The notes beneath the pieces are model-generated. The model ran no database searches, was not told where the DNA came from, and saw only the letters and a program-made list of their open reading frames with translations. The position numbers and the translations under genes are program-made. Shown here one piece after another: positions 8,449 to 33,522 of a stretch of DNA of 33,522 nucleotides. The stretch is from a virus. The stretch's first letter is position 1; every line of letters starts with the position of its first letter. The stretch lies in the IMG/VR virus record IMGVR_UViG_3300010392_000397, positions 1 through 33,522 of that record; one strand, 5' to 3'.

Positions 8449-8472
8449 GCCATTTTGGAGCAATAAAATGGC
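8449..8472 (+). promoter_or_regulatory. Hairpin enclosing the SD and start codon of the capsid gene
   Basis: A perfect 8-bp inverted repeat (GCCATTTT at 8449-8456 and AAAATGGC at 8465-8472) encloses the 8-base loop GGAGCAAT. The loop displays the GGAG Shine-Dalgarno, while the ATG of the major capsid gene (8468-8470) is paired in the stem. The stem is moderately weak (A/T in the middle), so it may breathe. Whether it folds in vivo or regulates translation is inferred. Confidence 0.55.
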
Positions 8473-9418
8473 AGGACAACTTTGGGCAGTAAACGCTCTC
8501 GGTGGGTATATGTATACCGACGAGCTGACCAATGTTCTTCGCACCGCATTACAGCCGATTGTGCGCTTTCGCCAATTCTGTGATGCAAAAGATGCGACGG
8601 ACAAAGGTCTTGGTAAGGGCAACCTGTTCCACTGGAACGTCTATTCTGACGTTGCAACAGCGGGTGGCGAACTGAATGAACAGGAAGCCATGCCTGAAAC
8701 AAACTATTCGATCACTCAGGGTCAGCTGACCATTACCGAATACGGTAACAGCGTACCCTACACTGGCAAACTGGATGATCTGTCCAAGCAGCCGGTGAAA
8801 GAGATCATTCACAAAGTGCTGAAAAATGATGCCAAGAAGGTACTCGACACTGCTGCTCACGCACAGTTCGACGCTACCGGTGGCAGCGTAGTTGGCGAAA
8901 ACGGTACGACCATTACTACCAAGTATGATGGTGCTGTAGCAGCCAACAACAACAGCGCGCTTCTGAACGTTCATGTGAAGCTGATCGTCGACGAAATGAA
9001 AGAGCGGAACATCCCGCCTTACGCCGACGACGATTACTACTGCGTCGCATGGCCTTCAACCTACCGGTCTTTCAAGAACAACCTTGAAGACATTCACAAG
9101 TACATCGAAACCGGCTTCTCCAAGATTATGAATGGTGAAATTGGCCGGTACGAAGGTACTCGCTTCATTGAACAGACTCACATCGCTAAAGAAGCCACGT
9201 CATTTGCCACGAACAGTGCATCTGATTGGGCTTTCTTCTTCGGTGAAGACACTGTTGCTGAAGCATTGGCGATCCCCGAAGAAATTCGCGGCAAGATTCC
9301 TGGCGACTTCGGTCGTTCACGGGGTATTGCGTGGTACTACCTCGGTGGTTTTGGCATCATTCACTCAGGATACAGTAACGACGAAACTCGTATTCTGAAG
9401 TGGACTAGCGCAGGGTAA
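8468..9418 (+). CDS. Major capsid protein, N4-gp56 family
   Basis: This is the shell-forming protein of the head. The 316-residue sequence carries the hallmarks of the N4-gp56 major capsid family: an N-terminal segment with TDELTNVLRTALQPIVRFRQF (residues 17-37), the loop LNEQEAMPETNYSITQGQ (69-86) and the strand ITEYGNSVPYTGKLDDLS (89-106), followed by the alpha-rich domain with NDAKKVLDTAAHAQFDATGG. It is shorter than the roughly 400-residue N4 protein. It is preceded by a good GGAG site inside a hairpin, as expected for a very highly expressed gene, and followed by the decoration-protein candidate. Confidence 0.87.
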   Translation: MAGQLWAVNALGGYMYTDELTNVLRTALQPIVRFRQFCDAKDATDKGLGKGNLFHWNVYSDVATAGGELNEQEAMPETNYSITQGQLTITEYGNSVPYTGKLDDLSKQPVKEIIHKVLKNDAKKVLDTAAHAQFDATGGSVVGENGTTITTKYDGAVAANNNSALLNVHVKLIVDEMKERNIPPYADDDYYCVAWPSTYRSFKNNLEDIHKYIETGFSKIMNGEIGRYEGTRFIEQTHIAKEATSFATNSASDWAFFFGEDTVAEALAIPEEIRGKIPGDFGRSRGIAWYYLGGFGIIHSGYSNDETRILKWTSAG

Positions 9419-18120: not shown

Positions 18121-18321
18121 GTGAGACAGGCAGACAGCGAGTTTCAGCGCCGCACCCTTCCGCAGTCTCACCACCGACTATTACAAGATGCGCTGAAAAA
18201 ATGGTATCGAAGCCCTGAGCTTGCTAAAGCTGTTAAAAAATGGGAATCGCGGTATTATATCCAGCATGAACAGAGGGTTATGCAATGCTATCAGCAGGAA
18301 TCTCCAAAGCTAAACCATTGA
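18121..18321 (+). CDS. Small basic hypothetical protein
   Basis: A 66-residue frame beginning at GTG 18121, two bases after the Rz1 stop, and overlapping the next gene by 37 bases. It is strongly basic and Gln-rich (RRTLPQSHHRLLQDALKKWY; KAVKKWESRYYIQHEQR), helical by eye, without a membrane segment. No clear Shine-Dalgarno is seen. It is kept because it fills an otherwise empty stretch between two real genes and its composition is protein-like. It may be a translated linker rather than an important gene. Confidence 0.45.
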   Translation: MRQADSEFQRRTLPQSHHRLLQDALKKWYRSPELAKAVKKWESRYYIQHEQRVMQCYQQESPKLNH

Positions 18322-19349
18322 TTGAAAAGACCGTTGAAAAAGCCGGCCTGAATCAACCGTCTTCTGGTGGCGGTAATTCGCCGGCAGATGCTGTTGTAGC
18401 TCGCCATGCTGAGAACAAACAACCGGAACTTACCGGCGAAACCAGTACCGAAGCAAAGCCTGTTCTTTCTGTCTCTACACAATCATCCGGGCTGGGTTCC
18501 ACTACAGGTAACTTCTTCGAGAATAACGGTATTGAATTGCCGTGGCAGAAATCAGCCAAAGAGTCTGAGGAAAACCAAAAAGCCACCCTAGAAGGTATTG
18601 GCGATGTTGGAAACTACGGCGGCGATAACCCTACACAGCCAGCACCGGTTCTTCCTACAGTAACAACCCCACAAACGGAACAAGCCACAGTGACCCCGCA
18701 GCCGCTGCCAGAGCCATCAGCCGGCGAAGAATGGGCGGAAGGTAATCCAGCTTACGACCAAGCCATGACCGAGTTGATCGACAATATGGCTAATGTGCCA
18801 GGTTTCGAGGGTTTCGATGGTAGCGAATCATCAATTCAAGATCTGCTGACACCAGTTCCAAAGCCTGTTGCTTACGAAGTACAAACCGCCATGCAAATGC
18901 TGCCGCAGTCTGTACGACAAAGCGACATGGCTCCGTACTATGAGCAGTCTATTGGTCGCGCAATGATGATGGCTGCATCACGCGGCGCTCAGAACATGAC
19001 ACTTGCTGGTCAGGCTGCATCGCTTGCGACAGCAGACCACTTGAAGACGCTAGACACAATGCGTGAGAACGGTTCTATCGCATACGGTCAGCAATACCTT
19101 GCATCTGTATCACAGCGCCAGAATTCATATTCCGAGGAAGTGCGGGCGATCTACAGCGCAGATGGTCTGAATGCCCAGCAGGAAGAAGCAGCAATCAAGA
19201 TTGCAGCCGACAGGTATCGGGCTGACCTTGATCTTCTGGCTCACCAATACGAAAACTCGCCGTTGTGGGATGATACGTGGTGGCCCGGGCGCGCATCAGC
19301 GCCGAGCGGATATGGGTACGAAGGAACACCGATGGGTGGTGGTGGATAA
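18285..19349 (+). CDS. Probable internal virion / ejection-module protein
   Basis: The 354-residue protein starts at ATG 18285 with GAGGG about 8 bases upstream. The first 150 residues are low-complexity (Pro, Gln, Glu, Gly, Thr). Residues about 175-330 are helical (YEVQTAMQMLPQSVRQSDMA; MMMAASRGAQNMTLAGQAAS; AAIKIAADRYRADLDLLAHQ), and the end is Gly-rich (YGYEGTPMGGGG). It has no transmembrane segment. It opens a five-gene run leading into the giant polyvalent gene, the position of internal core or ejection proteins in podoviruses. The family is not recognised; the role is from context. Confidence 0.65.
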   Translation: MLSAGISKAKPLIEKTVEKAGLNQPSSGGGNSPADAVVARHAENKQPELTGETSTEAKPVLSVSTQSSGLGSTTGNFFENNGIELPWQKSAKESEENQKATLEGIGDVGNYGGDNPTQPAPVLPTVTTPQTEQATVTPQPLPEPSAGEEWAEGNPAYDQAMTELIDNMANVPGFEGFDGSESSIQDLLTPVPKPVAYEVQTAMQMLPQSVRQSDMAPYYEQSIGRAMMMAASRGAQNMTLAGQAASLATADHLKTLDTMRENGSIAYGQQYLASVSQRQNSYSEEVRAIYSADGLNAQQEEAAIKIAADRYRADLDLLAHQYENSPLWDDTWWPGRASAPSGYGYEGTPMGGGG

Positions 19350-19822
19350 TGATTCTAAGAAAAGCAAAAGAAACCGACATCTGGCAGCTTTTTGAAATGC
19401 TGGCTAACGCCAAAGGTGTTAGCCCATACAAAGATATACCAGCAAAGAAAGCGGATATGGTGGCGACCATAAAATATGCTATCGCTAACAAACTGGCTTG
19501 CTGTTTGGTTGTTCAAGGCAAACACAAAATTGAAGGTATTGTTGTAGGGTCTGCAAACCCTCTGTGGTACAACGCCGCCAAAAAGAACGCGACCACAATT
19601 ATTCTCACTGCCGATAACACCAAAGCACAGGCTTTGTTGACAGCGGGCTTTTTGGATTGGGCGTGGTCGCTTCCGTCAGTGTCGGAAGTAACCATAGGCA
19701 CTGCACACGCCTATGCTTACGGAATGCACGATCAGGTGTTTGAGGAAGCCGGTCTACAGGAATGTGCTACGGCTTTCACGATGGTAAGACCAAAACAGGG
19801 TAAGAAATATGGGAATCGGTAA
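19349..19822 (+). CDS. GNAT-like acetyltransferase
   Basis: The 157-residue protein starts at ATG 19349 (TAATG overlap); an upstream in-frame start at 19277 lies inside the previous gene and is rejected. It begins with the standard GNAT opening (ILRKAKETDIWQLFEMLANA), has a central strand pair (CCLVVQGKHKIEGIVVGSAN), and ends in VFEEAGLQECATAFTMVRP, like the last helix and strand of the fold. The canonical acetyl-CoA loop (Q/R-x-x-G-x-G/A) is not evident, so activity is uncertain. GNAT-like proteins are common beside phage structural genes, where their substrate is unknown. Confidence 0.7.
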   Translation: MILRKAKETDIWQLFEMLANAKGVSPYKDIPAKKADMVATIKYAIANKLACCLVVQGKHKIEGIVVGSANPLWYNAAKKNATTIILTADNTKAQALLTAGFLDWAWSLPSVSEVTIGTAHAYAYGMHDQVFEEAGLQECATAFTMVRPKQGKKYGNR

Positions 19823-20654
19823 TTTTGTCAAGCGCGCAGGAAAGAAGGTAGTCGGCACTGTTAAGCGGGCTGTAAAGAAGGTTGGTGATGTCTTTAAGCG
19901 CGTAATCAACAACATTCCTGCCATCGCGAAAATCGCGATCATGGTGGTGGCGGCTTACTTTACCTTCGGGGTGGCGCTCAGTTATTTCCCTGCTGCAAAC
20001 GGTGTGCTGGCATCAATGCCGGGTTTCGGTGCTACCGCCAGCGGTAATGCCGGCATATTCAGCAGCTTCGCTCAGAATCTTGGTGTCGCCGGCAAGGGTA
20101 TTACAGATACCGCGCTCGCAGGAACACAAGCAGCTGCTAGTGCTGGCGCTCAGGTGGCCGCAACCGGTGCAGAAAAGGCGCTTGAAGTTGGTGCAACATC
20201 TTCAGCACAAGGCACTGTTGGTGTTGGTGGTGAGCTTGGTAAACAAGTTGGTGGTCAGCTGGCGAAGAACGCCGGTCAGGAAGTTGTCAAAGCAACCACC
20301 AATCAGGTTGTTAAAGAAGTTGGCAGCAAGGGTGTTATGGAAGCTGTTAAAAGCGCCGGTCAGAAAGTAGCCGGCAGCTGGGGCAATCTCGACACCACAA
20401 GCAAATGGATTGCCGCTTCAACGGGCCTTCAGGTTGCCAGCTCCATGATGGCGAAGTCGCCAGACCCTTATTCACGCGGTACGTTTTATGGCGCGAACAA
20501 GAAAGGGCCGGTCGAAGGTTTCACGGATCACTCGAAGGTTAGTCACGAAGGCGGTAGTCCTTATGGTGGCGACCCTATGCCAGCACTGCCACCGACTATG
20601 GTCGACAATGGTGTTCAGAAGATGGCGAAACCAGAGGTGAATAAGTTTGGATAA
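19809..20654 (+). CDS. Membrane-active internal virion protein candidate
   Basis: The 281-residue protein overlaps the GNAT gene by 14 bases. Residues 5-34 form a strongly basic amphipathic helix (VKRAGKKVVGTVKRAVKKVG), followed by a transmembrane helix at about 37-60 (IPAIAKIAIMVVAAYFTFGV). Residues 75-210 are an Ala/Gly/Val/Gln-rich helical stretch with quasi-repeats (GAQVAATGAEKALEVGATSS; GELGKQVGGQLAKNAGQEVV). The C-terminus is polar. The basic amphipathic helix plus single membrane span suits a protein that inserts into the host membrane during DNA ejection. No family name can be given; the role is inferred. Confidence 0.65.
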   Translation: MGIGNFVKRAGKKVVGTVKRAVKKVGDVFKRVINNIPAIAKIAIMVVAAYFTFGVALSYFPAANGVLASMPGFGATASGNAGIFSSFAQNLGVAGKGITDTALAGTQAAASAGAQVAATGAEKALEVGATSSAQGTVGVGGELGKQVGGQLAKNAGQEVVKATTNQVVKEVGSKGVMEAVKSAGQKVAGSWGNLDTTSKWIAASTGLQVASSMMAKSPDPYSRGTFYGANKKGPVEGFTDHSKVSHEGGSPYGGDPMPALPPTMVDNGVQKMAKPEVNKFG

Positions 20655-21333
20655 TCAGCCACAAGAACTATTGCCAGCGCCATCCGGCAAGTCGCCGGAT
20701 GATCTTCGCCCGACAGGTTTAGCCCCTGGCGAACAGCCAGTTGCGGAAGGCGAAGTAACACCTGAGCAGCAGGAAGTTTACAACCAGCTGGTGTATCAGT
20801 TTGCCAAATACGTTGAAGGCTCTGGTGCAGATCAGGTGCTTCAGTATTTGAATAACCCTGACAATCCTGTGTATGTGAATATCGCCAAAGCTCAGTACAA
20901 CATTGGTGAGCAGATCATCAATAGCGCCGCACAAGCCGGTGCAAACATCGAGGGTGATGAAATCTTCCATGCCGGTGCTGAACAGACAGAAATCCTGATG
21001 GATATGGCTGCTGATGCCGGCATCTTGCCGTTTGAAAAAGACAGCGAGGAATATCAAGAGCAGCTGAAGTTAGCGTTTACCGAATCCCGCAAGATGATGG
21101 GCGAAGATATGCTCAACGGTCAGGACGGTGAGCAGCACATGATGGAAGCCGAAGATATGGCGGCTGTTCACATCAGCAACGAGGCTCAGGCTGGTCAAGT
21201 TCCAGATGGCTTCGAGAAATCAATGCAGGGTATTGGTATGAACCCGAATCTGAACACAACTTCAAAACTAGAAAAAAAACAGCGCCCTGCTAATATGCAA
21301 GCAGCGATTGAACAGGCGGTGAAAAGTGGCTAG
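20647..21333 (+). CDS. Acidic internal virion protein candidate
   Basis: The 228-residue protein starts at TTG 20647, supported by the strong AGAGGTGA ribosome site at 20633-20640 and the lack of a nearby ATG. It overlaps the previous stop by 8 bases. After a Pro-rich first 35 residues it is helical and strongly acidic with many Gln and Met (QLVYQFAKYVEGSGADQVLQ; EEYQEQLKLAFTESRKMMGE). It ends in a short basic helix. There is no membrane span. The family is not recognised; its partner may be the basic protein at 19809. Confidence 0.65.
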   Translation: MDNQPQELLPAPSGKSPDDLRPTGLAPGEQPVAEGEVTPEQQEVYNQLVYQFAKYVEGSGADQVLQYLNNPDNPVYVNIAKAQYNIGEQIINSAAQAGANIEGDEIFHAGAEQTEILMDMAADAGILPFEKDSEEYQEQLKLAFTESRKMMGEDMLNGQDGEQHMMEAEDMAAVHISNEAQAGQVPDGFEKSMQGIGMNPNLNTTSKLEKKQRPANMQAAIEQAVKSG

Positions 21334-22477
21334 AGATCCGAACAGGTGGTCTGATGCGTTAGGCGCGCTGGCTGATGGCGGCAGCAAAATGGTTGCGCAA
21401 TCAATGCGTAGCGATGAAAGCGAGAGGGATCGCCAGTGGCGTGAGCGTCAGGCTGATCTGGAAAACACCCGCGCTGAAAACCGTATGCGGCTCAAGGCTA
21501 CTCTTGATGCTGATGCGTTGCTTGCGGCTGAAGACCGTAAAAACGCAGAGTGGGAACGCCGGTTCGCAAAAGAACAGGCGGAGGCAGACCGCCGGCTGGA
21601 TAAGCAGCTTGCAATCGAAGACAAGAGGTTGGCTCGCAGTGACTCGAAAGAAGACAACGACATCATGTTTAGGGCCGAACAAGCCACAAACAAGATGCTT
21701 GCCGATGTTCGTAGTAAATACGACGAGCTGCTAGAGCCTACGCCGCAACAGACAGCATCATTCAAATCAGATTACTCTCGAATCGCGTTGGCTCTGTATC
21801 GTCGTGGTGTTCGTGAAGGCTGGTCTGGATACGACAACACAGCCGAAGGTGCTGCCACAATCCTGCAACCATATTCATTCGGTGAGCCGAAGTTCTTGAA
21901 CGCTATGGTTGCTGAAGCTGGCATTTTGACCGGGCTGACACCGCCGCCACAAATGGGTGGTAAGAAAGGTGGCGGTAAGAAAGGTGGCGGTCAGGAAACC
22001 AAAGAAGAACATCTGGCTTCCGGTAAAGAATGGAAAACCATTCTCGATCAGGAGCAGGAAACCGGCAAGCCATATATGACTGATGCTGGTGAAGAACCAG
22101 CACCGGTTCTGTCGACCACAAAACAGCCGAATGTTTCAGAACCAGGTATCGACCCTTCACAATCTGCAGCACAGGAAGTAATGCCAGCAGAAGAAGGCAG
22201 AACTATTGGAAACTCGCCTATTGGAATGATTGGCGGCGCGTTAATGGATAACGTGCTTCAGCCGATGCGAGACTACAGGCAAAAAAATCTCGACGCTGGA
22301 AGACAGCGCCTTGCAGACAAAGAAAAGAACGCACTAGGTGCGCGTCTTTCAAAAGCTGCGGATTCTTTATTCGGGCTGGAAGACACTCCCGAAAAACAAC
22401 GGTGGATACAGGAACAGAGCCAAATCGGTGTTGCTAAACCTAGCGCATCCGGCGTGGCACAACCAGCAATACCCTGA
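21326..22477 (+). CDS. Coiled-coil internal virion protein candidate
   Basis: The 383-residue protein starts at GTG 21326, overlapping the previous gene by 8 bases. Residues about 28-125 form a long, highly charged helix or coiled coil (RDRQWRERQADLENTRAENR; WERRFAKEQAEADRRLDKQL). Next come a helical domain (130-210), a Gly-Lys repeat linker (GGKKGGGKKGGG, about 211-222), and a disordered Pro/Glu/Ser-rich tail with one short hydrophobic patch (GNSPIGMIGGALMDNVLQP). It precedes the giant gene by 23 bases. Architecture and position suggest an internal core or ejectosome scaffold. No family identified. Confidence 0.65.
   Translation: MARDPNRWSDALGALADGGSKMVAQSMRSDESERDRQWRERQADLENTRAENRMRLKATLDADALLAAEDRKNAEWERRFAKEQAEADRRLDKQLAIEDKRLARSDSKEDNDIMFRAEQATNKMLADVRSKYDELLEPTPQQTASFKSDYSRIALALYRRGVREGWSGYDNTAEGAATILQPYSFGEPKFLNAMVAEAGILTGLTPPPQMGGKKGGGKKGGGQETKEEHLASGKEWKTILDQEQETGKPYMTDAGEEPAPVLSTTKQPNVSEPGIDPSQSAAQEVMPAEEGRTIGNSPIGMIGGALMDNVLQPMRDYRQKNLDAGRQRLADKEKNALGARLSKAADSLFGLEDTPEKQRWIQEQSQIGVAKPSASGVAQPAIP
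21956..21992 (+). repeat. Gly-Lys coding tandem repeat
   Basis: GGTGGTAAGAAA, GGTGGCGGTAAGAAA and GGTGGCGGTCAG follow in tandem and encode GGKK/GGGKK/GGGQ, a flexible basic linker within the coiled-coil protein. Confidence 0.8.
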
Positions 22478-22500
22478 GAAGGGAACAATAAGGAAGTGCT

Positions 22501-25500
22501 ATGGCATCGCCATTAGACGATTATTTGAAACAGCAGTATGGCGGCGAAGGTGCGCCGGCTAAAACAGAATCTGCTGGACAACAAATATCAGGCGGCTCCC
22601 CGCTCGATGATTATTTAAGCAGCACTTACAGTTCCCAAATATCCTCACAATCAGACGATCCTGATATTGGTGCTTCCGACTACGGAAGGGCTGTCATGGG
22701 TGGCTTCGCTCAGATTGGCGAAGGCATGGGCTGGCTCATGCGTATGGGTGGTATGGAAGACGCTGGCTCTGCGTTGGAAGATGCCGCTTCGAGTGCCGTT
22801 GACCATTGGTACAGCGGTATGTCTGCAGATGCCCTGCACGAAATCAGCCGAGATTGGACTAAGGTAAACCCTGACGGTTCGTGGGAGATCGACGATTGGA
22901 GCTTGCATAAGGTCGGGCTTGCCGGCGCAAGTTCGATACCTGGCACTATGCTTGGTATGGGTGCTGGTGGTGCAGTCACCAAAGGTCTGCAGTTATTTGC
23001 TAACCCATTCGGCAGAGCGACCCTTGATGCAGCTGTTAAGGCTGGTTCAAAAGCCGGCGCATCAGCAGCTACGGTAGCCAAAGGCGCTGCAGCTGCTAAG
23101 AAGCTGCGGATCGTCGACGGTATGCTTGGTGGTGTCGGTTTCGGTATTGGTGAGGGTGCTGTCGAAGGCACAGCCGCCGGTGCTGAAGTCTACAGACAGG
23201 TCATGGAATCAGACCCCGAAGATCTGTGGGCTAACCCGCGCTTCCAAGAAATCTTTCAGTCAGCCCCCGAACTGTCACCGATGGAGCGCGTACAGTACGC
23301 CTCACACACACTAGCTAACGAGCTTTCAAAGAGTGCTGCCAGCAAGGTTACTGGTGTGTCGGCCCTGCTTGGCGCTCCGCTTGGCTCTGTGTTGGGTAAG
23401 GTGCTTGGTGGTTCTGGCGTATGGGCTTCAAACCGCCTTCGCGGTGCTGGCGCTGGTTTTCTCTCTGAAGCAGTACAGGAAGCCGGTCAGTCCGGTTCTT
23501 CCCGGGCAATCCAGAACGTCACCATGCAGGGGATCGACCTCGATCTGGATACATGGGATGGTGTTGTCGACGAAATGGTTGGCGGCGCTATTGCCGGCGG
23601 TGCTATGGGTGTCGGCTTCGGCACATTCGATGTCAACGTATCCGAGCGTGAAGCCTCGTATAAGTCGAATAAGGTCGCAGAAGCAGCCCTAGCAAGGAAG
23701 TTTAAGGAAGTTACCCGCGTTTTCGCTAATCAGGGGCTGGATATAGCGCCAGTTGCTGATGTGATGAACAGGGCATCAGATCCAAAGGATACGGATACAA
23801 CCGCAGCTAAAGCCCTGACAGAGCTGACACAGCTCGCCACGCGGGCTATGAGCAACCCTGAGACATTCCAGCCGGCTAACCAGCCGGCTAACCAGCCGGA
23901 AGCCGAGGCAGCGCCAGAATCAGCCCCTGAGAGCGAAACTCAGCCCGAGCCTGATGATGATATCCCCATGACCCCGCAGCCTGATACAGCGCCACAGGTG
24001 GACACAGGGAACACGGTACAGCCGCCAGACACCGAACCTGAGCCTGATAGCCAGCCAGACGGTGATACGGTCACTCTGCCCGATACAGCGCCCACAGGGG
24101 CAGCACCGGACACTTCCGGCGGCTATGACTATGTGACGAGCTTCCCATCGCCTGACGAAAGCCTTAAATCCGATTACACGGCGGCTGGCGGCGAATGGCC
24201 CGACAGCCAGCAGAAGAATGAAATCTTCCATCAGTCGGTCATGTCAAACGTGCTATCGAGCAGAACGAAGATCGAGCAGCTTGAGTCTGCCGTAGCTTCT
24301 GGCTTCGACCCGAAAACAGGCAAAGAACCAACCAGTGAAGCCGGCAGGAAGCGGCTGGCTGCTGCACAGAAAGAGGTCAAAAAAGAAGCTGACTTTATTG
24401 AAGGTGAGTTCCAAACATATCTCACTGCATACGGAGCTAAAGCAACCAGCAGTCTTCGTCGCTACATCGACTACAGTCGTTTGCCGGAAGCAGCCCGGTC
24501 AGAACAAGAATCTTTGGATAAAGACCTTGCGAGCATAGAAGCGCAGGGTACAGATTTCACCGGCTTTATGGGTGACGTAGTAAACCCGAAAGTAAAACAA
24601 GGTGTTGTTTCTCTCAATAAAGCTGGAATCAAAACTTCCATGTCTGGCGATATGTATAACGCCGGATTGATTTACCTTGATGTTGAGTCAGATGTGACAG
24701 GCGAGCTGCCGGAAGGATGGGTTAAAACCGGTCGCCATATTGAGCAAACAAAAGCAGATGTATTGGGGGGCGATACAAAGAAAGCGAAAATGTCGCCAGG
24801 TACTCGCATTGCTCGCAAAGACACCGGCCCGATAACTAAAGCTGAAGCTGATGCTTTGGTTGCGGCATTCACCCCATCTGAAGACAACAAGACCGAAGCC
24901 GCGCCGAAACCGAAAGCCAAGCCTAAAGCCAAGCCTAAAGCAAAAACGAAGGCTGATAACAGCGTACCTAAGCTAGAACCGAATGATGTTAAGAAGCTCG
25001 ACAAGACTCACGATGCTGTGAAGCTGTCTACGGGCAAGATAAACAAGCCGGTCGAGGTTGGTGGTCGCTTGTTTACGGCGGCTGGTATTACACATCAGGG
25101 CGAGAGAGGCCCGAAACAAATTCGCTATGTGGAGCTTGTTCCGCAGGAAGATTATGAAGGCGAAACAATTGATGTAGGTCAGCAAATAGAGCAGTACGAC
25201 AAAGGTCGCCAGCGTGGTGATTGGACAGGCACTAGGGTTCAGCACGGTAAGAAGAAATATGTGGTCGCTCGCAACTACGAGTGGAATCGCGATGGTGGTT
25301 GGGGAACTTCAAAAGAAATTTTCGCACCGGAAACCAAAGCCCCTACTGAACAGACTGTTGACGAGTTTAAAGTAGAGGTCGCTAATGCAGTAGTTGATGC
25401 AATGCGCCCGTACTACAGTGAAGAAGACACTGACGGTAACTCATGGCTTCGCCGGCTAAAGAAACACAATGACTTCAAAGCCAATAAGAAGAACAAAAAA

Positions 25501-28500
25501 GAAGCCGGCACTTTCAGTAATGATGATATCGCCTTCGTGATTCATTCGGATCAGGCTGAAGGCGTTATCATTGTCACTCGTTACAACAAAGTGCTTCGCA
25601 AGAACGCGCAGATACAGGTTAGCGCGCAGTGGGTTCTTGAACAGCTTGCAGGAAACACAGACACAGACTTTCAGATGTTTGTTACCTACAAGCGCGGCAA
25701 CATGGCGCTAAATAAGACCTATGACGTAGAAGCTGGTATTCCAGATATCCAACCGTACTTGGATCAACTGCCAGAGTATGAGCAGTATTCAGATAGACCA
25801 CACGCTGAAATGTTTCACGGCAAGCTGGAAACCGTAAAGGTTATGAACATTGATGGCACGATGGTTGCTATTCGCCGTGTTATTGAACACCAAGATGAAA
25901 TTCGTAGTGTCCACTATACAGAGTTGACACCAATTGAAGATTGGAACGCAGAAACCATCACTGATATCGAAGGATTCGGTGAAACCAGCAACACCAAGAA
26001 AGGCGCTCGTCGCCCGTGGGATTACAGCGGCAGGGTAATTGATGTCGATGGCAAGCAGTACGTTGCTGGCGACAACTTTGAATACAGCAATTATGACGCT
26101 AATGATACTGGCGGCATTAAGCGTGAACCCGGCAAGATTCAGAATGTGGAAAAAGGCTCTGTTAATGCAGCCGCTGCAGCCTCTCCATTCAACCCCGAGA
26201 ACGACAAGCCAGAGCCTACAACGTCACAACAGAACGCCGGCACTGAAGGTAACTTTGAGCAGCCCGCAATCGAGTGGGAAGCAGCCGGCTTAACATTGCG
26301 TATGCAGTACCCGAAAGGGAGTGAGAGATACGGTAAAACCCTAAAGGCTCATTACGGAAACATCGAAGGCACTAAGGGCCATGATCGCATGAAGATTGAT
26401 GTGATTATAGGCGATGCTCTTGAAACGTCTGACAAGGTTTGGTTTGTAGACCAGCTTGACGATGGTGGAATGACTTACGTTCAGACTAAAGTTCTAGTCG
26501 GGTTTAACCGTAAGGCAGCAGCAATGAGCGCCTACAAAGCCATGTACCCGAGTGGTGAAAACATATCTTATCAAGGAAAAATATCAGAGCTTAAAGATTG
26601 GATAGACAGTGGGCAAGAGTCGCAAATGACAGCCCCACGTGGAATTTTTTCTGGTGTTAACAATTTTGGCTCTGACTCTACTTCAGAAGAAATGAAGGCT
26701 GGCATAGGCAGCAACCAGCAGACTCTTTTTGGCTCAAGAAAGGTTAGTACCAGGTGGGAGATATGGGATCTTCGCGACCTTGTAGCAAGCAACCTGATAT
26801 CAGGCAAGAAGAACAAAAACTATCCAGAGGAAATGCAGCCACGTGACCGCAGCCGTGACGCTACACAACAATGGATAAACGAAACAAAATCGAAGTTCCA
26901 GCCAGAGCGAGTCGGTTTTACTACAACAGCCGAAGATGGCGCTCCCGTGATAACCAAAGACGGTGTTGTTGTTTCCGGCAACGGTCGTGTGATGTTGTTC
27001 AAATCATCTTTCGGTAAAGACGAGAACGAATCTACCGAAGCGCTGCAAAAGGAGTATCACGATTACATAATTAAAAACGAGAGCCAGTTCGGTTTTAATT
27101 TTGGCGAGGACAAGAAAGACAGTGTTTATGGATTCTCTGTTCTTGTTCGCGTCATTCAAGAAGAAATGTCTGATGCCGAACTTGCAGATCTTGGCAAGGA
27201 AGGTAACGTCAGTGCGCAAGCAGCATTCTCGCCATCAGAACAGGCAGCAAAAGATGTTGTAAGCGAAAAGATGATCGGGATGCTAAACCCCGATGATAAG
27301 GGCAACCTGTTAGCAGCCAGCAATATGCCGTTCATGGTTGAGTTTATGAACGAGAATATACCGGTGGCCGAGCGCGCAGCGTTTATGACCGAAGACGGTC
27401 GCCCGACCAAGCAGCTTGCAGATCGAGTGCAACAGGCTGTGTTCTGGACTGCATACCGAAACGAGCGAATCCTTAGCCTGATGGCTGAAGAAGCTGACCC
27501 GGGCATTAAGAACATCATTGCCGCGCTCAACAAAGCAGCCCCGAATTTTGCGCGGGCGCAGTCTGCAGCTAATGGCAAGCTGGGCGATCTGGATGCCGTT
27601 ACGCCGTTGACTGACGCTATCGAGGCAATACGTTCAGCGAAGGGCGCTGGTCTTACTGTCGAAGAATTCCTGGCACAGCGTGATGCCTTCACCGAGATCG
27701 ACCCGACAGCTGACAGATTCGCACGATTCCTTGATGCCAATATGCGTAGCGGTCAGCGCATGGGTTCAGCCCTGTCGCATCTGGCAGAGCGTATCAACAA
27801 CGAGATAAGCAAGGGCAGCACCGAAGATATCTTTGGTTCTGAGCCGGCAAGCCTCGATGATCTGCTTTCTGCCACCAACGATTACATGAAGGAACAGTGG
27901 GGCGACGCGCCTAAAGGCAAGCAGAACCAGTTGTTCAGCAAGCGACCCGTGTCGCGGGTATCACTTGCCGAGGGGGATATCGTAAGCCGTATATGGTATG
28001 TCGATTCTCTAATGCACCCTGTCGGGCCTGATGGTCAGTTCCAACAGGTAAACGGTAATACGTTCCTTTATTCATCGCCTGACGAAATATCGAAGGTTGG
28101 TGGCGAAGTTTATGCCATCGACATCAGCAATCTAAACCTTTCACAGTTCACGGTATCGCCGGCTAAAACGAAAGCGGCTTATCCGGCGAAGATCCGGCGT
28201 GACCACATTCTGTCAAAGACAGAGGTCTATGCGATTCTGAATAAACCGGAAACAAAACCACAGCCAGTGCCATCAGCACCGCCGGCGGCTAAGAAGCCAA
28301 CAATCATTAAGCCGGAAAAAGGAACACCGGCGACCCTGTATCAGCAGCCAGTTGGTAACGCTGTTCAGTCGATGATTAAGTATCCGCACGAAACAGTGGA
28401 CACCGCGCAACAGGCTGCAGACATCTTTCATGCCGTTATCGGTCAGAAGTCGCACGAAGTGTTGCTTGGATTGATTACAGATAAAAACAACAAGCCGTTG

Positions 28501-31500
28501 TTTGTTGTTCGCCTTTCTGTTGGTGGCATATCTGCTACCACCATGTATTCGGAAGTTTTCTTTCCGGCAGTAATGAGTGATCCAAATGGCGTGAATTTCT
28601 GGATGGCACACAATCATCCGGGCGGCATTACAACTCAGAGTGACAGCGACAGAAAGCTCGCAAGATCTATAAACCTTTCTCTAACACAGACAGGTCTTAA
28701 CTTTAAAGGCAGTATTGTTGTTGCTCGCGGCTCGAAGTACACATTCTTTCATCCTGGCTCCGGTGTTGACCAGAGCAAGAGGGAAGTCGAAAGGCCGCAG
28801 GAAACCGGTAACGAAGAAACAATTCCGCTGATTGAACGTCGCTTTGTTGGCGAGGTTGAAGAAGTACCGCCGGCAAAGATTAACAGTGCAGAAGATATAG
28901 AAGCGTGGGTTCAAGAAAACCTAGATGGTCAGGAAGGAATTCTGATGCTCAACCAAAGAGCCATGATTACCGGCTTCCTGCCATACGACCTTGATGAAGC
29001 TGGTCTTTTGCGTAGAGGTGATATGGAAACTGGTGCGCCATTGATTATGCGTGAGCTTGGTAAGGCTGGCGCAAACCGAATTGTGCTTGTCTCAAACAGG
29101 GAGAATTACAGAACCTTAAACGGGGTTGCAGACAACATAAAGCGACTATTAAACCGCCTTGATATGCAATTCACTGATTGGATAAACAACGGTAAAACTG
29201 TTCGACGCACCGGAGGTAGAGGTGCGCTTCCAGACACTCGCGCTCACAAATTCTTGTCTGCCGGCACAGAACAGGTAGAGGAAGGTCTGACTGTAGAACA
29301 GGTTGATATGTTCCTGTCGCCATTCAAGTCACAGTTCGGTGGTGTTGTAGACATCGAGGTTGTGCAGTCGAACTCAGATCTACCGTTTGACGTAGAACCA
29401 AGTGACATTATTGAGGGCGTGTACCTTGAGGGAACGAACAAGGTTTATATGGTAGCCGACAATCTGCGTAATGCAGATGATGTTGCCCGCGTAGCCTCTC
29501 ACGAAATCATTGGTCACTACGGTCTGGAAAAACTTCCAGAGTTCAATGATGTGCTGGGAGCTGTTAAGAGTATGGCTCGCTCAGGAAACAAGCGTGTAGC
29601 TGATGCGTGGAAAGAAGCAGAGCTGCGCAACCCGAATGAAAACAATGATGTTTTAGCCAAAGAAACACTGGCGATCCTAACTGAGCGTGGCAATAACAAT
29701 ATAGGAATACTTGCCCGCGCACGGGTAGCAATGCGTCAGGCGCTTCGCCGTATCGGATTCAATCAAGAAATCACAGAAGAAGAAGTTGACGCGTTGATTA
29801 TCCGGGCGGCTCGCGATCTCACGAAAGCGAACATGGATTACCAGCAAACCATCATGTCTGCCAGCCAGACCGCCACACTCGAAAACCCTGATGCCTTCCG
29901 CGACGAAATATCAAAAGCAATGGAAGAAATCTACGAGGAATACGGGCCATCGACTGATGCCGAGCGAATCAATCCTGTATTCAGCAAGGGTAATGTGGTG
30001 GAAATGTCTATGCCAGCACTCAGCCAGACAGACCGGCTGTTCTTGGAAGGCGCAAAGAATCCGGCAGCAATGCTTGAGTTGCAGAAGTTTATCGAAGATC
30101 CGATGGACACAGACGCGCTCGATTCTTTTATCTTTGAGACAATCAAAGCAGCCCGGTTTATTGATGCCGATGCCCAGCAGGGCGACATCGAGATCTATCC
30201 TGACCGCGATTACATCGAGAATGAGCGTGAGGCAGATATAGCAGACACCATTGACTTGATATCACTGGCAATGGAAGACATTGTGCTTGGTCGCTTTGTT
30301 CGCAACCAGACGAAGTACAAGAGTGCTGACGAAGCCCTGATTGACCTTTCTCGCCGCATGACCACCCCAGCCGGCAGACCGTTCAAGCCACGCTTCAGCA
30401 AGCGGTATGAAGATCGTCACGAACCTGTCGGTCAGCACATCGACCGCTTCCTGAGTATGCTCACTCCGCACAATAGCTTCTTGGGGCTAATCGAATTGAA
30501 ATCGTTCCTTAAAACTCCATCTGGTGCAAACCGTGAGGCGTTGTTGGAACAGGTACGCAAAGACCTGATTTTTCAGTACACCAGTAAGTACCAGCCGAAG
30601 TACAAAAAGCACAACCCGAGAAACATCGACGGTCTTAACAAAGCGATGATTCTTATTGATGATGCCTTCGATACGGTGGCATCTAATCTGAAAATCGGAA
30701 CGGTAAAAGAGTTCCGAGATATCACAAAGGCTTTCATCAACAAGAAGTACGGCAACACCAGAAATATGTACAGCAAGCGAGCTACTGGTGGCGATCGCAT
30801 GGAAGCACTGACAGGTAAGTACCTGGCTAAACCGCAGGAAGATTACACACTGCGCGACCGTATGCGTATTTGGTTCCGCAACATGACCAATTGGGATTGG
30901 CGGGCGATCCGACAGAACATCATTGATAACGCCGAGTCACTGCGGGCGCTAGAAGTCGATACCTTTGGTCAGACCCTAGATGCTGCTTACTCGCCATACA
31001 AAGCTGTGCTGGCTACCAGAAACATTCGGTCGGTAATGACCTATGTGATGATAGGCGGCATTCCTCAGTTGAAAGACGGTTCTTTCCAGCCGAAAGCAGG
31101 GCGCAAGGGCATCATTGAAATCTTCCGGCCTCTCACCGATCACAAGGATGGCAACCTGTTGCACTTATGGGAGCTGTACGCAGCTGCCAAACGTGCGAAG
31201 CAGTTGATGAACGAGAAGAATAAAGACGGTACTGAGCGTGAAAAACTGTTTGACCCGGAAGACATCGAAGAAATTCTGGAACTGAAGGATAAGTACCTCG
31301 ATGAAAACGGCGAATCAATCTTCGAGAAAGTCCACAAGGATTGGATGAAGATGAACAGCGAAGCCCTCGATCTGCTAGAGAAGTCTGGCGTACTGGATGC
31401 CGAGCTTCGCAAAACATTCATCAACAATATGTATGTGCCTTTCCATCGAGCTATGGAGTCAATCGAATTTGACGAATACAGCAAGGGTGAAGGCAGGAAG

Positions 31501-33522
31501 CCGCGTGGTATGCGCGGCGGTGTCTCGAATGTGAATTCCGGCATCATGCGCTTGAAGGGTTCTGAGCGCAAAGTCGGTCACGTCTTCGAGAACATGGTTA
31601 TGAACATGACCTACATGATGGACGCGGCTTATCGCAACCATGCCATGCAGCGTGTTGCGCTGGCTTATGATGGCGGTGCATTAGAGAAGATCGACCTTGA
31701 AACAGAAGCGGTTCAGATATCGTTGCAGCAGATGGCTTCTGCGCTACGCAAGGCGGGCCTCATTGTTGGTAACACGCCAGCGCCCGGGCAAGTCGATACC
31801 TTCGGTATGCAAGTAGTCCAGCGCATGACTCCCGAGCAGCGCGACCAGTGGCTGAAGGTGTTCCGCAAGGTCGCGCCAGCCGGCGACAACATTGTGACGG
31901 TGCTTCAGAACGGTCAGCGGGTTTACTACCGCGTTCACGATCCGCTACTGCTTCGCACTCTGCAGGGTGTTGGTACTCAGCGGTTCGACAACATTATGGG
32001 GCTGTTCGGCGGTTCTAAACGGTTGCTGACCACAATGGTTACAACTGACCCTGCATTTATGATGGCTAACTTCGTCCGTGACACACTGGCTGCGTGGGTA
32101 CAGTCTGACGTTGGTATGAAGCCATTTGTCGATTCAGTCAAAGGCATGAAGTCAGCTTGGAACGAAGATGAAGATATGCTGACCCTTATGGCGGCTGGTG
32201 CTGGTGGCGGTGGCTTCTATGACACCAACTCAGATGATGTTCGTAAGCTGATCGCCAAGAAAGTGCCTCGCGGTCACGTTGACAGCTTTATGAATTCGAT
32301 TGTTTCACCGTCCGGTATGTGGCGGTTCTGGCGGCGCGTTGGTAATGCTTCAGAGCAAGCCAACCGTGTTGCTGTTTATAAGCGTGTGCGCGGTGCTGGC
32401 GGTTCGGTAGCGGAAGCGGCTTATCAGGCGCGTGATGTGTTGAACTTCACGATGGTCGGTGACAACCCGACAGTCATGGCTCTGGTCGCTACCGTTCCGT
32501 TTTTTAATGCCAGGTTGCAGGGTTTGTATCGCCTGTCTCGCGGCGCGATGGATAACCCGAAGGCATTCGCCACCAAAGGCTTCATTCTGGCTGCTATGTC
32601 ACTGGCTCTGCTGTACCGGAATTGGGATAACGACGATTACGAACGGCTTCCAGAGTGGGATAAAGACCTGTACTGGCACATCTGGATCGGTCGCGATATG
32701 GCTAATGACAACAAGGGTGAACACTTCCGTATCCCGAAACCGTTTGAAGTGGGCGCTATGTTTGCCACAGTGCCTGAGCGTATCTGGCGCAAGACTGCCG
32801 GCAGGGATGATTTGAACCTGATGAAAGAGCGTGGGCTTTCGATGATGTTTGAAACCTTCGCCTTCAACCCTGTACCACAGCTGATTAAGCCTATATGGGA
32901 GCAGAAATCAAACCTCGATTTCTTTACGAACAGCCCGATTGTAGGCTTCAGTGAGCAGGGCCGGATACCAGAGGCTCAGTACAACCCGTGGACATCTGAG
33001 TTCATGCGTGAAATGGCAAAGGCTATGCCAGACAGCGCGCCGGCGTGGCTGCGCTCACCGCAGCGCCTAGAACACGCTTTGCGTGGTTACTTCGGTGCAA
33101 CTGGTATGTATATCCTTGATGCGGCTGACTACATGACGCGGGGCGCATTCGGATACCCGGACAAAACCGCCAAAGACATTCGTGACTACCCTGTTGTGAA
33201 ACGGTTCTGGCGCAACCCGAACCCGCGTTACACCAAGTACGCTAACCAGATGTACGGAATGCTGGAAGAATCAAACGACATCTATCGCACGATCAATGCT
33301 TATAAGAAGCAGGGGCTTGGTAAAGAAGCCAAAGCACTATACAAAGATAAAGTCGGTGTGCTGGCTGCGCGTAACAATCTGAACAAGATGCTGAAGGAAA
33401 TCCGCAAGGTCAATGACCGGATACGCCAAATCGAGTACAACAATGTGATGAATTCAGACGAAAAAAAGGCGGCCATAGACCGCCTTCAGAGTCGCAAGAA
33501 CAAGGTCATGTCGAGAGTGGAA
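22501..33522 (+). CDS. Giant phage polyvalent protein, 3' end beyond window
   Basis: One frame runs from ATG 22501 (AGGAAG 5 bases upstream) to the last base without a stop: 3674 codons and more. Domain order by residue: 1-40 duplicated SPLDDYL; 60-390 Gly/Ala-rich hydrophobic segments, possibly membrane-active; 461-540 Pro/Glu/Asp linker; 545-800 unknown; 800-815 KPKA linker; 820-1240 unknown, mixed alpha/beta; 1262-1380 InPase-like; 1420-1600 DdrB/ParB-like, then helices to about 1800; 1820-1910 unknown; 1960-2095 RadC-like JAMM; 2131-2230 degenerate RadC-like; 2260-2450 zincin; 2500-3160 mainly helical; 3170-3560 LPD38-like. Families of this kind, described for phages and conjugative elements, are thought to be delivered with the DNA and to counter host defence. 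The size rivals the N4 virion RNA polymerase, but I found no T7-like polymerase motifs in the visible part. Confidence 0.85.
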   Translation, partial: MASPLDDYLKQQYGGEGAPAKTESAGQQISGGSPLDDYLSSTYSSQISSQSDDPDIGASDYGRAVMGGFAQIGEGMGWLMRMGGMEDAGSALEDAASSAVDHWYSGMSADALHEISRDWTKVNPDGSWEIDDWSLHKVGLAGASSIPGTMLGMGAGGAVTKGLQLFANPFGRATLDAAVKAGSKAGASAATVAKGAAAAKKLRIVDGMLGGVGFGIGEGAVEGTAAGAEVYRQVMESDPEDLWANPRFQEIFQSAPELSPMERVQYASHTLANELSKSAASKVTGVSALLGAPLGSVLGKVLGGSGVWASNRLRGAGAGFLSEAVQEAGQSGSSRAIQNVTMQGIDLDLDTWDGVVDEMVGGAIAGGAMGVGFGTFDVNVSEREASYKSNKVAEAALARKFKEVTRVFANQGLDIAPVADVMNRASDPKDTDTTAAKALTELTQLATRAMSNPETFQPANQPANQPEAEAAPESAPESETQPEPDDDIPMTPQPDTAPQVDTGNTVQPPDTEPEPDSQPDGDTVTLPDTAPTGAAPDTSGGYDYVTSFPSPDESLKSDYTAAGGEWPDSQQKNEIFHQSVMSNVLSSRTKIEQLESAVASGFDPKTGKEPTSEAGRKRLAAAQKEVKKEADFIEGEFQTYLTAYGAKATSSLRRYIDYSRLPEAARSEQESLDKDLASIEAQGTDFTGFMGDVVNPKVKQGVVSLNKAGIKTSMSGDMYNAGLIYLDVESDVTGELPEGWVKTGRHIEQTKADVLGGDTKKAKMSPGTRIARKDTGPITKAEADALVAAFTPSEDNKTEAAPKPKAKPKAKPKAKTKADNSVPKLEPNDVKKLDKTHDAVKLSTGKINKPVEVGGRLFTAAGITHQGERGPKQIRYVELVPQEDYEGETIDVGQQIEQYDKGRQRGDWTGTRVQHGKKKYVVARNYEWNRDGGWGTSKEIFAPETKAPTEQTVDEFKVEVANAVVDAMRPYYSEEDTDGNSWLRRLKKHNDFKANKKNKKEAGTFSNDDIAFVIHSDQAEGVIIVTRYNKVLRKNAQIQVSAQWVLEQLAGNTDTDFQMFVTYKRGNMALNKTYDVEAGIPDIQPYLDQLPEYEQYSDRPHAEMFHGKLETVKVMNIDGTMVAIRRVIEHQDEIRSVHYTELTPIEDWNAETITDIEGFGETSNTKKGARRPWDYSGRVIDVDGKQYVAGDNFEYSNYDANDTGGIKREPGKIQNVEKGSVNAAAAASPFNPENDKPEPTTSQQNAGTEGNFEQPAIEWEAAGLTLRMQYPKGSERYGKTLKAHYGNIEGTKGHDRMKIDVIIGDALETSDKVWFVDQLDDGGMTYVQTKVLVGFNRKAAAMSAYKAMYPSGENISYQGKISELKDWIDSGQESQMTAPRGIFSGVNNFGSDSTSEEMKAGIGSNQQTLFGSRKVSTRWEIWDLRDLVASNLISGKKNKNYPEEMQPRDRSRDATQQWINETKSKFQPERVGFTTTAEDGAPVITKDGVVVSGNGRVMLFKSSFGKDENESTEALQKEYHDYIIKNESQFGFNFGEDKKDSVYGFSVLVRVIQEEMSDAELADLGKEGNVSAQAAFSPSEQAAKDVVSEKMIGMLNPDDKGNLLAASNMPFMVEFMNENIPVAERAAFMTEDGRPTKQLADRVQQAVFWTAYRNERILSLMAEEADPGIKNIIAALNKAAPNFARAQSAANGKLGDLDAVTPLTDAIEAIRSAKGAGLTVEEFLAQRDAFTEIDPTADRFARFLDANMRSGQRMGSALSHLAERINNEISKGSTEDIFGSEPASLDDLLSATNDYMKEQWGDAPKGKQNQLFSKRPVSRVSLAEGDIVSRIWYVDSLMHPVGPDGQFQQVNGNTFLYSSPDEISKVGGEVYAIDISNLNLSQFTVSPAKTKAAYPAKIRRDHILSKTEVYAILNKPETKPQPVPSAPPAAKKPTIIKPEKGTPATLYQQPVGNAVQSMIKYPHETVDTAQQAADIFHAVIGQKSHEVLLGLITDKNNKPLFVVRLSVGGISATTMYSEVFFPAVMSDPNGVNFWMAHNHPGGITTQSDSDRKLARSINLSLTQTGLNFKGSIVVARGSKYTFFHPGSGVDQSKREVERPQETGNEETIPLIERRFVGEVEEVPPAKINSAEDIEAWVQENLDGQEGILMLNQRAMITGFLPYDLDEAGLLRRGDMETGAPLIMRELGKAGANRIVLVSNRENYRTLNGVADNIKRLLNRLDMQFTDWINNGKTVRRTGGRGALPDTRAHKFLSAGTEQVEEGLTVEQVDMFLSPFKSQFGGVVDIEVVQSNSDLPFDVEPSDIIEGVYLEGTNKVYMVADNLRNADDVARVASHEIIGHYGLEKLPEFNDVLGAVKSMARSGNKRVADAWKEAELRNPNENNDVLAKETLAILTERGNNNIGILARARVAMRQALRRIGFNQEITEEEVDALIIRAARDLTKANMDYQQTIMSASQTATLENPDAFRDEISKAMEEIYEEYGPSTDAERINPVFSKGNVVEMSMPALSQTDRLFLEGAKNPAAMLELQKFIEDPMDTDALDSFIFETIKAARFIDADAQQGDIEIYPDRDYIENEREADIADTIDLISLAMEDIVLGRFVRNQTKYKSADEALIDLSRRMTTPAGRPFKPRFSKRYEDRHEPVGQHIDRFLSMLTPHNSFLGLIELKSFLKTPSGANREALLEQVRKDLIFQYTSKYQPKYKKHNPRNIDGLNKAMILIDDAFDTVASNLKIGTVKEFRDITKAFINKKYGNTRNMYSKRATGGDRMEALTGKYLAKPQEDYTLRDRMRIWFRNMTNWDWRAIRQNIIDNAESLRALEVDTFGQTLDAAYSPYKAVLATRNIRSVMTYVMIGGIPQLKDGSFQPKAGRKGIIEIFRPLTDHKDGNLLHLWELYAAAKRAKQLMNEKNKDGTEREKLFDPEDIEEILELKDKYLDENGESIFEKVHKDWMKMNSEALDLLEKSGVLDAELRKTFINNMYVPFHRAMESIEFDEYSKGEGRKPRGMRGGVSNVNSGIMRLKGSERKVGHVFENMVMNMTYMMDAAYRNHAMQRVALAYDGGALEKIDLETEAVQISLQQMASALRKAGLIVGNTPAPGQVDTFGMQVVQRMTPEQRDQWLKVFRKVAPAGDNIVTVLQNGQRVYYRVHDPLLLRTLQGVGTQRFDNIMGLFGGSKRLLTTMVTTDPAFMMANFVRDTLAAWVQSDVGMKPFVDSVKGMKSAWNEDEDMLTLMAAGAGGGGFYDTNSDDVRKLIAKKVPRGHVDSFMNSIVSPSGMWRFWRRVGNASEQANRVAVYKRVRGAGGSVAEAAYQARDVLNFTMVGDNPTVMALVATVPFFNARLQGLYRLSRGAMDNPKAFATKGFILAAMSLALLYRNWDNDDYERLPEWDKDLYWHIWIGRDMANDNKGEHFRIPKPFEVGAMFATVPERIWRKTAGRDDLNLMKERGLSMMFETFAFNPVPQLIKPIWEQKSNLDFFTNSPIVGFSEQGRIPEAQYNPWTSEFMREMAKAMPDSAPAWLRSPQRLEHALRGYFGATGMYILDAADYMTRGAFGYPDKTAKDIRDYPVVKRFWRNPNPRYTKYANQMYGMLEESNDIYRTINAYKKQGLGKEAKALYKDKVGVLAARNNLNKMLKEIRKVNDRIRQIEYNNVMNSDEKKAAIDRLQSRKNKVMSRVE
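22507..22617 (+). repeat. Duplicated SPLDDYL motif at the giant protein N-terminus
   Basis: Residues 3-9 (22507-22527) and 33-39 (22597-22617) both read SPLDDYL, followed by a polar Gln/Ser/Tyr stretch. Several codons differ at synonymous positions (TCG CCA TTA GAC versus TCC CCG CTC GAT). The protein sequence has therefore been kept while the DNA drifted. Confidence 0.75.
23869..23898 (+). repeat. 12-base tandem repeat, 2.5 copies
   Basis: CAGCCGGCTAAC is repeated at 23869-23880 and 23881-23892, with a partial third copy (CAGCCG). It encodes QPAN-QPAN-QP at the start of the acidic Pro-rich linker of the giant protein. Confidence 0.9.
24913..24942 (+). repeat. 12-base tandem repeat encoding KAKP linker
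   Basis: AAAGCCAAGCCT is present twice (24913-24924, 24925-24936) and then AAAGCA. It encodes a basic KAKPKAKPKA linker separating two uncharacterised regions of the giant protein. Confidence 0.9.
26284..26640 (+). other. InPase-like (pyrophosphatase-fold) domain of the giant protein
   Basis: Residues about 1262-1380 match the layout of the inorganic-pyrophosphatase-like domain found in polyvalent proteins: YGNIEGTKGHDRMKIDVIIGD, then DKVWFVDQLDDG, KVLVGFNRKAAAMSAYKAMY and a closing helix. From memory the usual acidic core reads G-x-D-G-D-H-V-D-V; here it is G-H-D-R-M-K-I-D-V, so one acidic position appears replaced. Catalytic competence is therefore doubtful. Confidence 0.68.
26758..27300 (+). 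other. DdrB/ParB-like domain of the giant protein
   Basis: Residues about 1420-1600. Signature elements are MQPRDRSRDA (1445-1454), GAPVITKDGVVVSGNGR (1480-1496) and EGNVSAQAAFSPSEQA (1569-1584). This order is that of the DdrB-like ParB-superfamily domain of phage polyvalent proteins, where the SGNGR segment corresponds to the nucleotide/DNA-binding signature. The following 200 residues are helical. Confidence 0.78.
28378..28785 (+). other. RadC-like JAMM (JAB/MPN) domain of the giant protein
   Basis: Residues about 1960-2095. All metal-site positions of a RadC-type JAMM domain are present: Glu1986 in SHEVLLGL, H2037-N-H2039-P, Ser2047 and Asp2050 (HNHPGG, six residues, SxxD). It should bind zinc and act as a protease or isopeptidase; RadC-like proteins remain poorly defined biochemically. 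Confidence 0.85.
28891..29200 (+). other. Degenerate second RadC-like unit
   Basis: Residues about 2131-2230 repeat the RadC pattern: EGILMLNQRAMITGFLP for the first strands, APLIMRELGKAGANRIVLVSN for the helix and strand before the metal motif, and then a closing helix. Where HNHPSG should stand it has NRENY (2199-2203), so the zinc site is absent. A catalytically dead duplicate is inferred. Confidence 0.5.
29280..29850 (+). other. Zincin metallopeptidase domain of the giant protein
   Basis: Residues about 2260-2450. The motif VASHEIIGHYGLEKL places His2334, Glu2335 and His2339 in the HExxxH(Y)G pattern seen in polyvalent-protein zincins, preceded by the characteristic KVYMVADNLRNADDVARVA. 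A third ligand may be Glu2388 or Glu2395 (VLAKETLAILTE). The closing helices (RQALRRIGFNQEITEEEVDA) also fit. This is the best candidate for self-processing of the polyprotein. Confidence 0.75.
32008..33180 (+). other. LPD38-like C-terminal region of the giant protein
   Basis: Residues about 3170-3560, with the recognisable segments TTDPAFMMANFVRDTLAAWV, GNASEQANRVAVYKRVRGAG, AYQARDVLNFTMVGDNPTVM and VPFFNARLQGLYRL. This is the layout of the large polyvalent protein-associated domain LPD38, a helical region of unknown function near the C-terminus of such proteins. A hydrophobic helix lies at GFILAAMSLALLYRNW. Confidence 0.7.

Follow-up and report, generated by a model that had tools for sequence, protein, structure and literature searches.

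Background

Polyvalent proteins have so far been described as mosaics of effectors, and fixed end modules would address how such chains are loaded and delivered. A 2017 survey limits the InPase, DdrB-ParB and LPD38 domains to the phage type of polyvalent protein and reports the RadC pair only from conjugative elements (Iyer et al. 2017, PMC5512222). The same survey assigns the N-terminal region of the phage N4 virion RNA polymerase (vRNAP), gp50, to injection and its C-terminal region to encapsidation, and its authors, querying with the N4 N-terminal region, retrieved no proteins other than the N4-type polymerases of related phages. Membrane helices are predicted in the gp50 N-terminal domain; this domain is ejected and, in isolated form, enters nanodiscs (PMC12633501, preprint). 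Data from P22 suggest that the N-terminal parts of ejection proteins bind scaffold (PMC8402733).

Giant or DdrB-like proteins have also been studied in other phages. By mass spectrometry, JC1 gp69 has the second-highest score among the proteins of purified virions (51 unique peptides), and its kinship with the Bcep22-like group is stated in the same work (PMC9144972). The DdrB protein of phage P1 is a head protein (PMC9024508). In Escherichia phage PTXU04, gp25 is essential: its knock-down strongly reduces plaquing, and when expressed it either is toxic or disturbs infection; the host of the pooled assay was E. coli BL21 (PMC11879866). Peptide fingerprinting of four PTXU04 bands identified only gp7, gp10, gp11 and gp12 (PMC6563267).

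A giant gene closes the structural operon

The window, meaning the whole 33,522-nucleotide stretch analysed here (IMG/VR record IMGVR_UViG_3300010392_000397), is a virus record. Its portal, capsid, adaptor and one tail protein are related to those of PTXU04, and the capsid, adaptor and tail protein are also related to those of Vibrio phage 1.232.O. The giant gene is the last of the structural operon, with terminase, portal-like, capsid, adaptor and tail genes lying 5' of it on the same strand, as expected of a late virion gene. The major capsid protein (8468..9418, +) matches the PHROG major head protein and is related to PTXU04 gp10.

Four genes between the capsid and the giant encode possible small ejection proteins, a role suggested by position: a 354-aa protein (18285..19349, +) that is kept upstream in contig G002, an Ala/Gly-rich 281-aa protein with a basic N-terminus (19809..20654, +), a 228-aa protein (20647..21333, +), and a 383-aa protein immediately 5' of the giant gene (21326..22477, +). 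A GNAT acetyltransferase gene (19277-19822) lies within this block. Acetyltransferases are annotated at comparable places in BcepIL02 (gp65), JC1 (gp63), POI1126 (gp24), vB_Pun_Y3 and HTVC204P (gp44).

The giant frame (22501..33522, +) begins with an ATG at 22501, preceded by a Shine-Dalgarno-like AAGGAAG (22490..22496, +), and runs unbroken through 3674 codons to the window edge; the next-longest frame in the window spans 996 aa. A frame of such length cannot be chance. The 60,939-base contig IMGVR_UViG_3300027980_000037, from nearly the same virus, shows 0 mismatches to the window over 20871-33522 and 5 over the whole window, and it reaches the stop codon after 21 more bases, which gives a complete protein of 3,680 aa with the end ...MSRVEAFAHLF. 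An earlier sequence-only reading had described a frame of more than 3674 aa open to the edge and proposed extending the contig to its stop codon; both points are borne out, and no frameshift or internal stop interrupts the gene in the second contig, where it is identical.

Other genes on the longer contig encode SSB, RecT, YqaJ and a separate 153-aa RadC with an intact motif (L023:15799-16257, minus strand, outside the window); the phage therefore encodes RadC in free-standing as well as fused form. An 863-aa protein is encoded 5' of the terminase (L023:9230-11818, minus strand), its last 188 residues lying at window positions 1-567, and gives a weak polysaccharide deacetylase match.

The N-terminal module is shared with N4-type virion RNA polymerases

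The N-terminal module (aa 70-377; 22708..23631, +) is Gly/Ala-rich and, by profile comparison, is homologous to the injection domain of N4-type vRNAPs. Built on 57 proteins, a profile covering aa 1-400 scored 47, 31, 27 and 27 bits against four diverse N4-type vRNAPs, at the same place in each (aa 171-437), the 47 bits falling at aa 230-437 of N4 gp50. Reversed or shuffled controls reached 4.8 bits at best. Profile-profile comparison of the two N-terminal regions gave a probability of 98.6% (E 1e-15), a reciprocal search with the vRNAP N-terminal side as query recovered the giants, and the alignment keeps residues beyond Gly/Ala composition. The link rests on profiles, because direct tblastn of the module against phages found no match even at E 1; Pfam likewise has no match in the N-terminal region of either the giant or N4 gp50. 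It appears to be new, because the published searches with the N4 region recovered only N4-type polymerases (PMC5512222).

The N-terminus had been read from sequence as hydrophobic and possibly membrane-inserting. Its hydrophobic character does not hold, since it is 32% Gly/Ala and has no classical hydrophobic transmembrane stretch; membrane insertion gains plausibility from the lipid-binding homologue in N4 gp50. The same reading had pointed to the slot and size of the N4 vRNAP with no polymerase in view, and the homology of the module adds to that likeness. Slot, size and N-module would all suit a virion RNA polymerase whose polymerase domain goes unrecognised, which we nevertheless regard as highly improbable: Pfam and PHROG give no RNA polymerase family match in the giant or in the scanned rest of the genome on the longer contig, gp50 shows no convincing similarity outside the N-module and none in its polymerase part, and the C-terminal module described below is absent from all four vRNAPs.

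Ahead of the module, a short motif containing SPLDDYL is present twice at the start of the protein: SPLDDYLKQQYGGE (aa 3-16; 22507..22548, +) and SPLDDYLSSTYSSQ (aa 33-46; 22597..22638, +). In 19 of 45 relatives, where 2 would be expected, the N-terminal 70 residues rank in the top 5% of the protein's own stretches for self-similarity (P 1e-13, a value that assumes independence, whereas related phages are not independent). The motif is repeated within each phage and differs among phages (L035, L047, L083, L086, L092, L098, L104, G003 and others), and this duplicated element may be a putative docking signal. Motif sharing with other frames of the same contig was not convincing, and an apparent internal copy at aa ~1793 was rejected as part of the conserved DdrB tail. 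Blastp found no self-repeats within the giant. Two segments, YVELVPQEDYEGETIDV and YTELTPIEDWNAETITD (aa ~885-950 and ~1130-1200; about 25150-26100), look alike by eye, and their blastp similarity is not significant.

A fixed C-terminal module preceded by a zincin

The conserved C-terminal module (aa 2750-3676; 30748..33522, +) ends every relative and contains LPD38 (aa 3378-3564; 32632..33192, +; Pfam E 3e-39). In tblastn searches the last ~880 residues are widely shared, and upstream parts match other proteins. An alignment search with the module returned at least 80 loci. In all 93 proteins having it, the module lies 0-23 aa from the C-terminus; since the module was the criterion for choosing these relatives, its position is a finding and its presence is not. 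Its length varies by 4% around a mean of 875 aa, and the part upstream varies by 41%. An AlphaFold2 model (pLDDT 77, pTM 0.72) matches predicted viral proteins with TM scores up to 0.83, that of PTXU04 included, and Ralstonia phage Alix at lower TM. Neither sequence nor fold searches found a solved relative, and the module profile found nothing in the four vRNAPs. Methanosarcina virus MetMV and Stx-converting phages have the module as well (MK170447.1 40636-42672; NC_049922.1 57004-58797).

Pfam scans of 28 relatives found LPD38 in all 28, together with InPase in 8, ddrB-ParB in 5, ADP-ribosyltransferase in 4 and RadC in 2; some also carry helicases, methylases, a zeta toxin or a 2H/Acb1-like domain. 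The last is seen in the giant frame of locus L044 (2-12850), where the 2H phosphoesterase domain at aa 413-518 resembles Acb1, an anti-CBASS protein. The giants are thus proteins with fixed ends and an exchangeable enzyme middle.

A zincin metallopeptidase domain (aa 2266-2433; 29296..29799, +) precedes the C-module. It gave no Pfam match in the window's giant and was detected by a profile built from relatives, which found it in 81 of them and confirms the zincin proposed earlier as one of HEXXXH type. The ligands are kept: HEIIGH at 29500-29517 (aa 2334) and a downstream Glu in LAKETLA, as in polyvalent zincins. HEXXXH is present in 69 of the 81 domains; HEXXH was rejected as the motif, occurring in only 9. 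Where a relative has a zincin, it lies ahead of the C-module in every case (78 of 78), with a median gap of 52 aa, and the zincin has no significant similarity to N4 gp50. A zincin would also suit a giant that is made late, is not packaged and remains in the cell that produces it, perhaps as an assembly protease. We consider this improbable, since the N-module is homologous to an ejected protein and a class-mate group with the same modules is found in virions (PMC9144972).

Enzyme domains in the middle of the chain

The first recognised domain of the middle, InPase (aa 1248-1368; 26242..26604, +; Pfam E 3e-20), has lost several conserved acidic residues. The Glu of ENP, the second Asp of DGD and the Asp and Glu of FDE are replaced, which makes four family-conserved acidic positions, and the residue set of a type I inorganic pyrophosphatase is therefore incomplete. 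The domain may be inactive, judging from these substitutions.

Next comes a ddrB-ParB domain (aa 1413-1540; 26737..27120, +; Pfam E 2e-21) that keeps the QPRDRS and SGNGR motifs, followed by a conserved DdrB tail (aa 1566-1792; 27196..27876, +), which is also present in phage P1 DdrB and was found together with the ParB domain in 13 of 13 relatives. ParB domain, family motifs and tail are all present, as in a DdrB-like ParB protein.

The RadC/JAB domain (aa 1965-2084; 28393..28752, +; Pfam 1967-2081, E 9e-12) carries an HNHPGG....S..D motif with an upstream Glu. The metal motif HxH...S..D (HNHPGGITTQSDSD) is accompanied by the fold, Foldseek aligning the domain to 2QLC with a TM score of 0.85 by target. 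HxHP....S..D is kept in 31 of 32 relatives with RadC; the upstream Glu is variable among them and present in the window's protein. The NCBIfam model of full-length RadC is matched only over positions 88-206 of 212, below its cut-off. Directly behind lies a second RadC-like unit (aa 2104-2232; 28810..29196, +) with no metal ligands. Its AlphaFold2 model has the same strand and helix order as RadC, and profile similarity to RadC is weak (probability 21%, P 0.001). The unit directly follows RadC in all 32 proteins with this RadC, a set that includes a few viruses counted under two locus ids, and large frames on about 30 more viral contigs contain the pair too. The pairing of an active with an inactive unit recalls, by analogy only, the paired JAB subunits of eukaryotic complexes. 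No homologue was found for aa 560-1240 or 1800-1945.

Most of the domain assignments made in the sequence-only reading survive profile searches. InPase, ddrB-ParB, RadC and LPD38 were all found by Pfam; of the two RadC-like units, the second is upheld by its modelled fold order and conserved pairing, and the pyrophosphatase-like region is an InPase domain whose conserved acidic residues are partly lost. The losses in InPase and in the second RadC-like unit would fit a structural ejection protein whose enzyme domains serve its own processing or are relics, idle in the host, as would low-cargo relatives such as HTVC204P (1253 aa). The motifs of RadC, ParB and zincin are kept, HxHP....S..D and HEXXXH in the proportions given above, and we therefore rate such idle cargo as unlikely.

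Proposed function

The giant is likely, in our view, to serve a PTXU04-like short-tailed phage as its large ejection protein: both ends of this carrier are fixed, and the exchangeable enzyme cargo between them would act in the host after entry. The giant's packaging and ejection are well supported by homology. Two PTXU04 results weigh against this reading: gp25 was not among the proteins identified from the four fingerprinted bands (PMC6563267), and it gave no match to the N-module. Thanks to the N-module, the giant would exit together with the small ejection proteins and become anchored at the inner membrane. The C-module of ~875 residues probably keeps the giant inside the procapsid, a task that falls to the C-terminal region in the N4 polymerase; this role is proposed by analogy, because the module has no solved relative and is unrelated to the vRNAP C-terminal region. 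The cargo between the ends (a ParB-type nuclease or NTPase, the RadC pair and a probably inactive InPase) would act in the host cytoplasm right after entry, and the zincin, placed ahead of the C-module and behind the cargo, probably cleaves the chain so that parts of the cargo are released.

The sequence-only reading had favoured a packaged multi-enzyme counter-defence cargo. Its polyvalent, ejection-type part stands, given the N-module homology and the detection in virions of JC1 gp69, the giant of the group to which BcepIL02 gp70 belongs. Whether the enzyme set mainly disarms host defences is another matter, and we judge this possible but doubtful. The ParB/DdrB section is homologous to the P1 defence-against-restriction set, whose DdrB resides in the head (PMC9024508), and relatives carry methylase/helicase regions, ADP-ribosyltransferase and, in L044, the Acb1-like domain. 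Against this, the window's own giant has no known anti-defence domain by Pfam or PADLOC, with no methylase, helicase or 2H match, and its InPase is degenerate. HelliStehle, which is related to PTXU04, is highly sensitive to restriction-modification (PMC11990801), and pure counter-defence does not predict that PTXU04 gp25 is essential in a laboratory strain (PMC11879866). BL21, the host of the pooled assay, is not known to have type I restriction, so restriction does not account for the effect of the gp25 knock-down. The reduced plaquing on a laboratory strain argues that part of the role is needed for infection as such.

A wider proposal follows the N-module across phages, and here we lean only slightly in favour. 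N4-type vRNAPs and the giants of many unrelated short-tailed phages may belong to one injection system, in which a common N-module for injection and membrane contact is followed by interchangeable enzymes and the N4 polymerase is just one of many cargoes; for the majority of the class, a common C-module would package the protein and the zincin free the cargo. Should the carrier model apply to many phages, it would become possible to test what makes proteins such as PTXU04 gp25 essential, the N4 polymerase would take its place in a broader class, and the diverse middles could be read as a catalogue of early host-takeover enzymes.

Comparison with known systems

The giant resembles the phage-type polyvalent proteins (PMC5512222) in its very large size, its many unrelated domains, its zincin, its phage-specific InPase, DdrB-ParB and LPD38, and a gene beside virion genes. 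InPase, ParB, RadC, zincin and LPD38, which are functionally unrelated, stand on one 3680-aa chain, and all three domains limited to the phage type are among them. It differs in having a RadC pair, which is now placed in phage-type polyvalent proteins.

Its similarity to P1 DdrB covers the ParB domain together with the tail (~376 aa, 33% identity). P1 DdrB is a 108.7 kDa protein with only this part and its own zincin, whereas in the window's giant the part is one section of a longer chain. PTXU04 gp25 is alike in its C-module (36% identity over 857 aa), zincin, gene order and related portal, capsid and adaptor. It is shorter (2197 aa), lacks recognised ParB, RadC and InPase, and gave no match to the N-module profile.

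The Lessievirus DarB-like giants are close in plan. BcepIL02 gp70, of 4,667 residues, has N-module, zincin and C-module in the same order as the window's giant (E 8e-25, 4e-15 and 1e-38). The cargo is different: JC1 gp69 has methylase-like (YtxK) and helicase-like (HepA) regions (PMC9144972), whereas the window's giant has InPase, ParB and RadC and no match to the DarB methylase-helicase unit.

N4 gp50 shares the N-module, the slot (capsid, small ejection proteins, giant), the size and the plan of N-domain, enzyme and C-domain. The window's giant, in contrast, has no polymerase, another C-terminal module and other cargo. The best reading is that it functions in the manner of the N4 vRNAP without being one.
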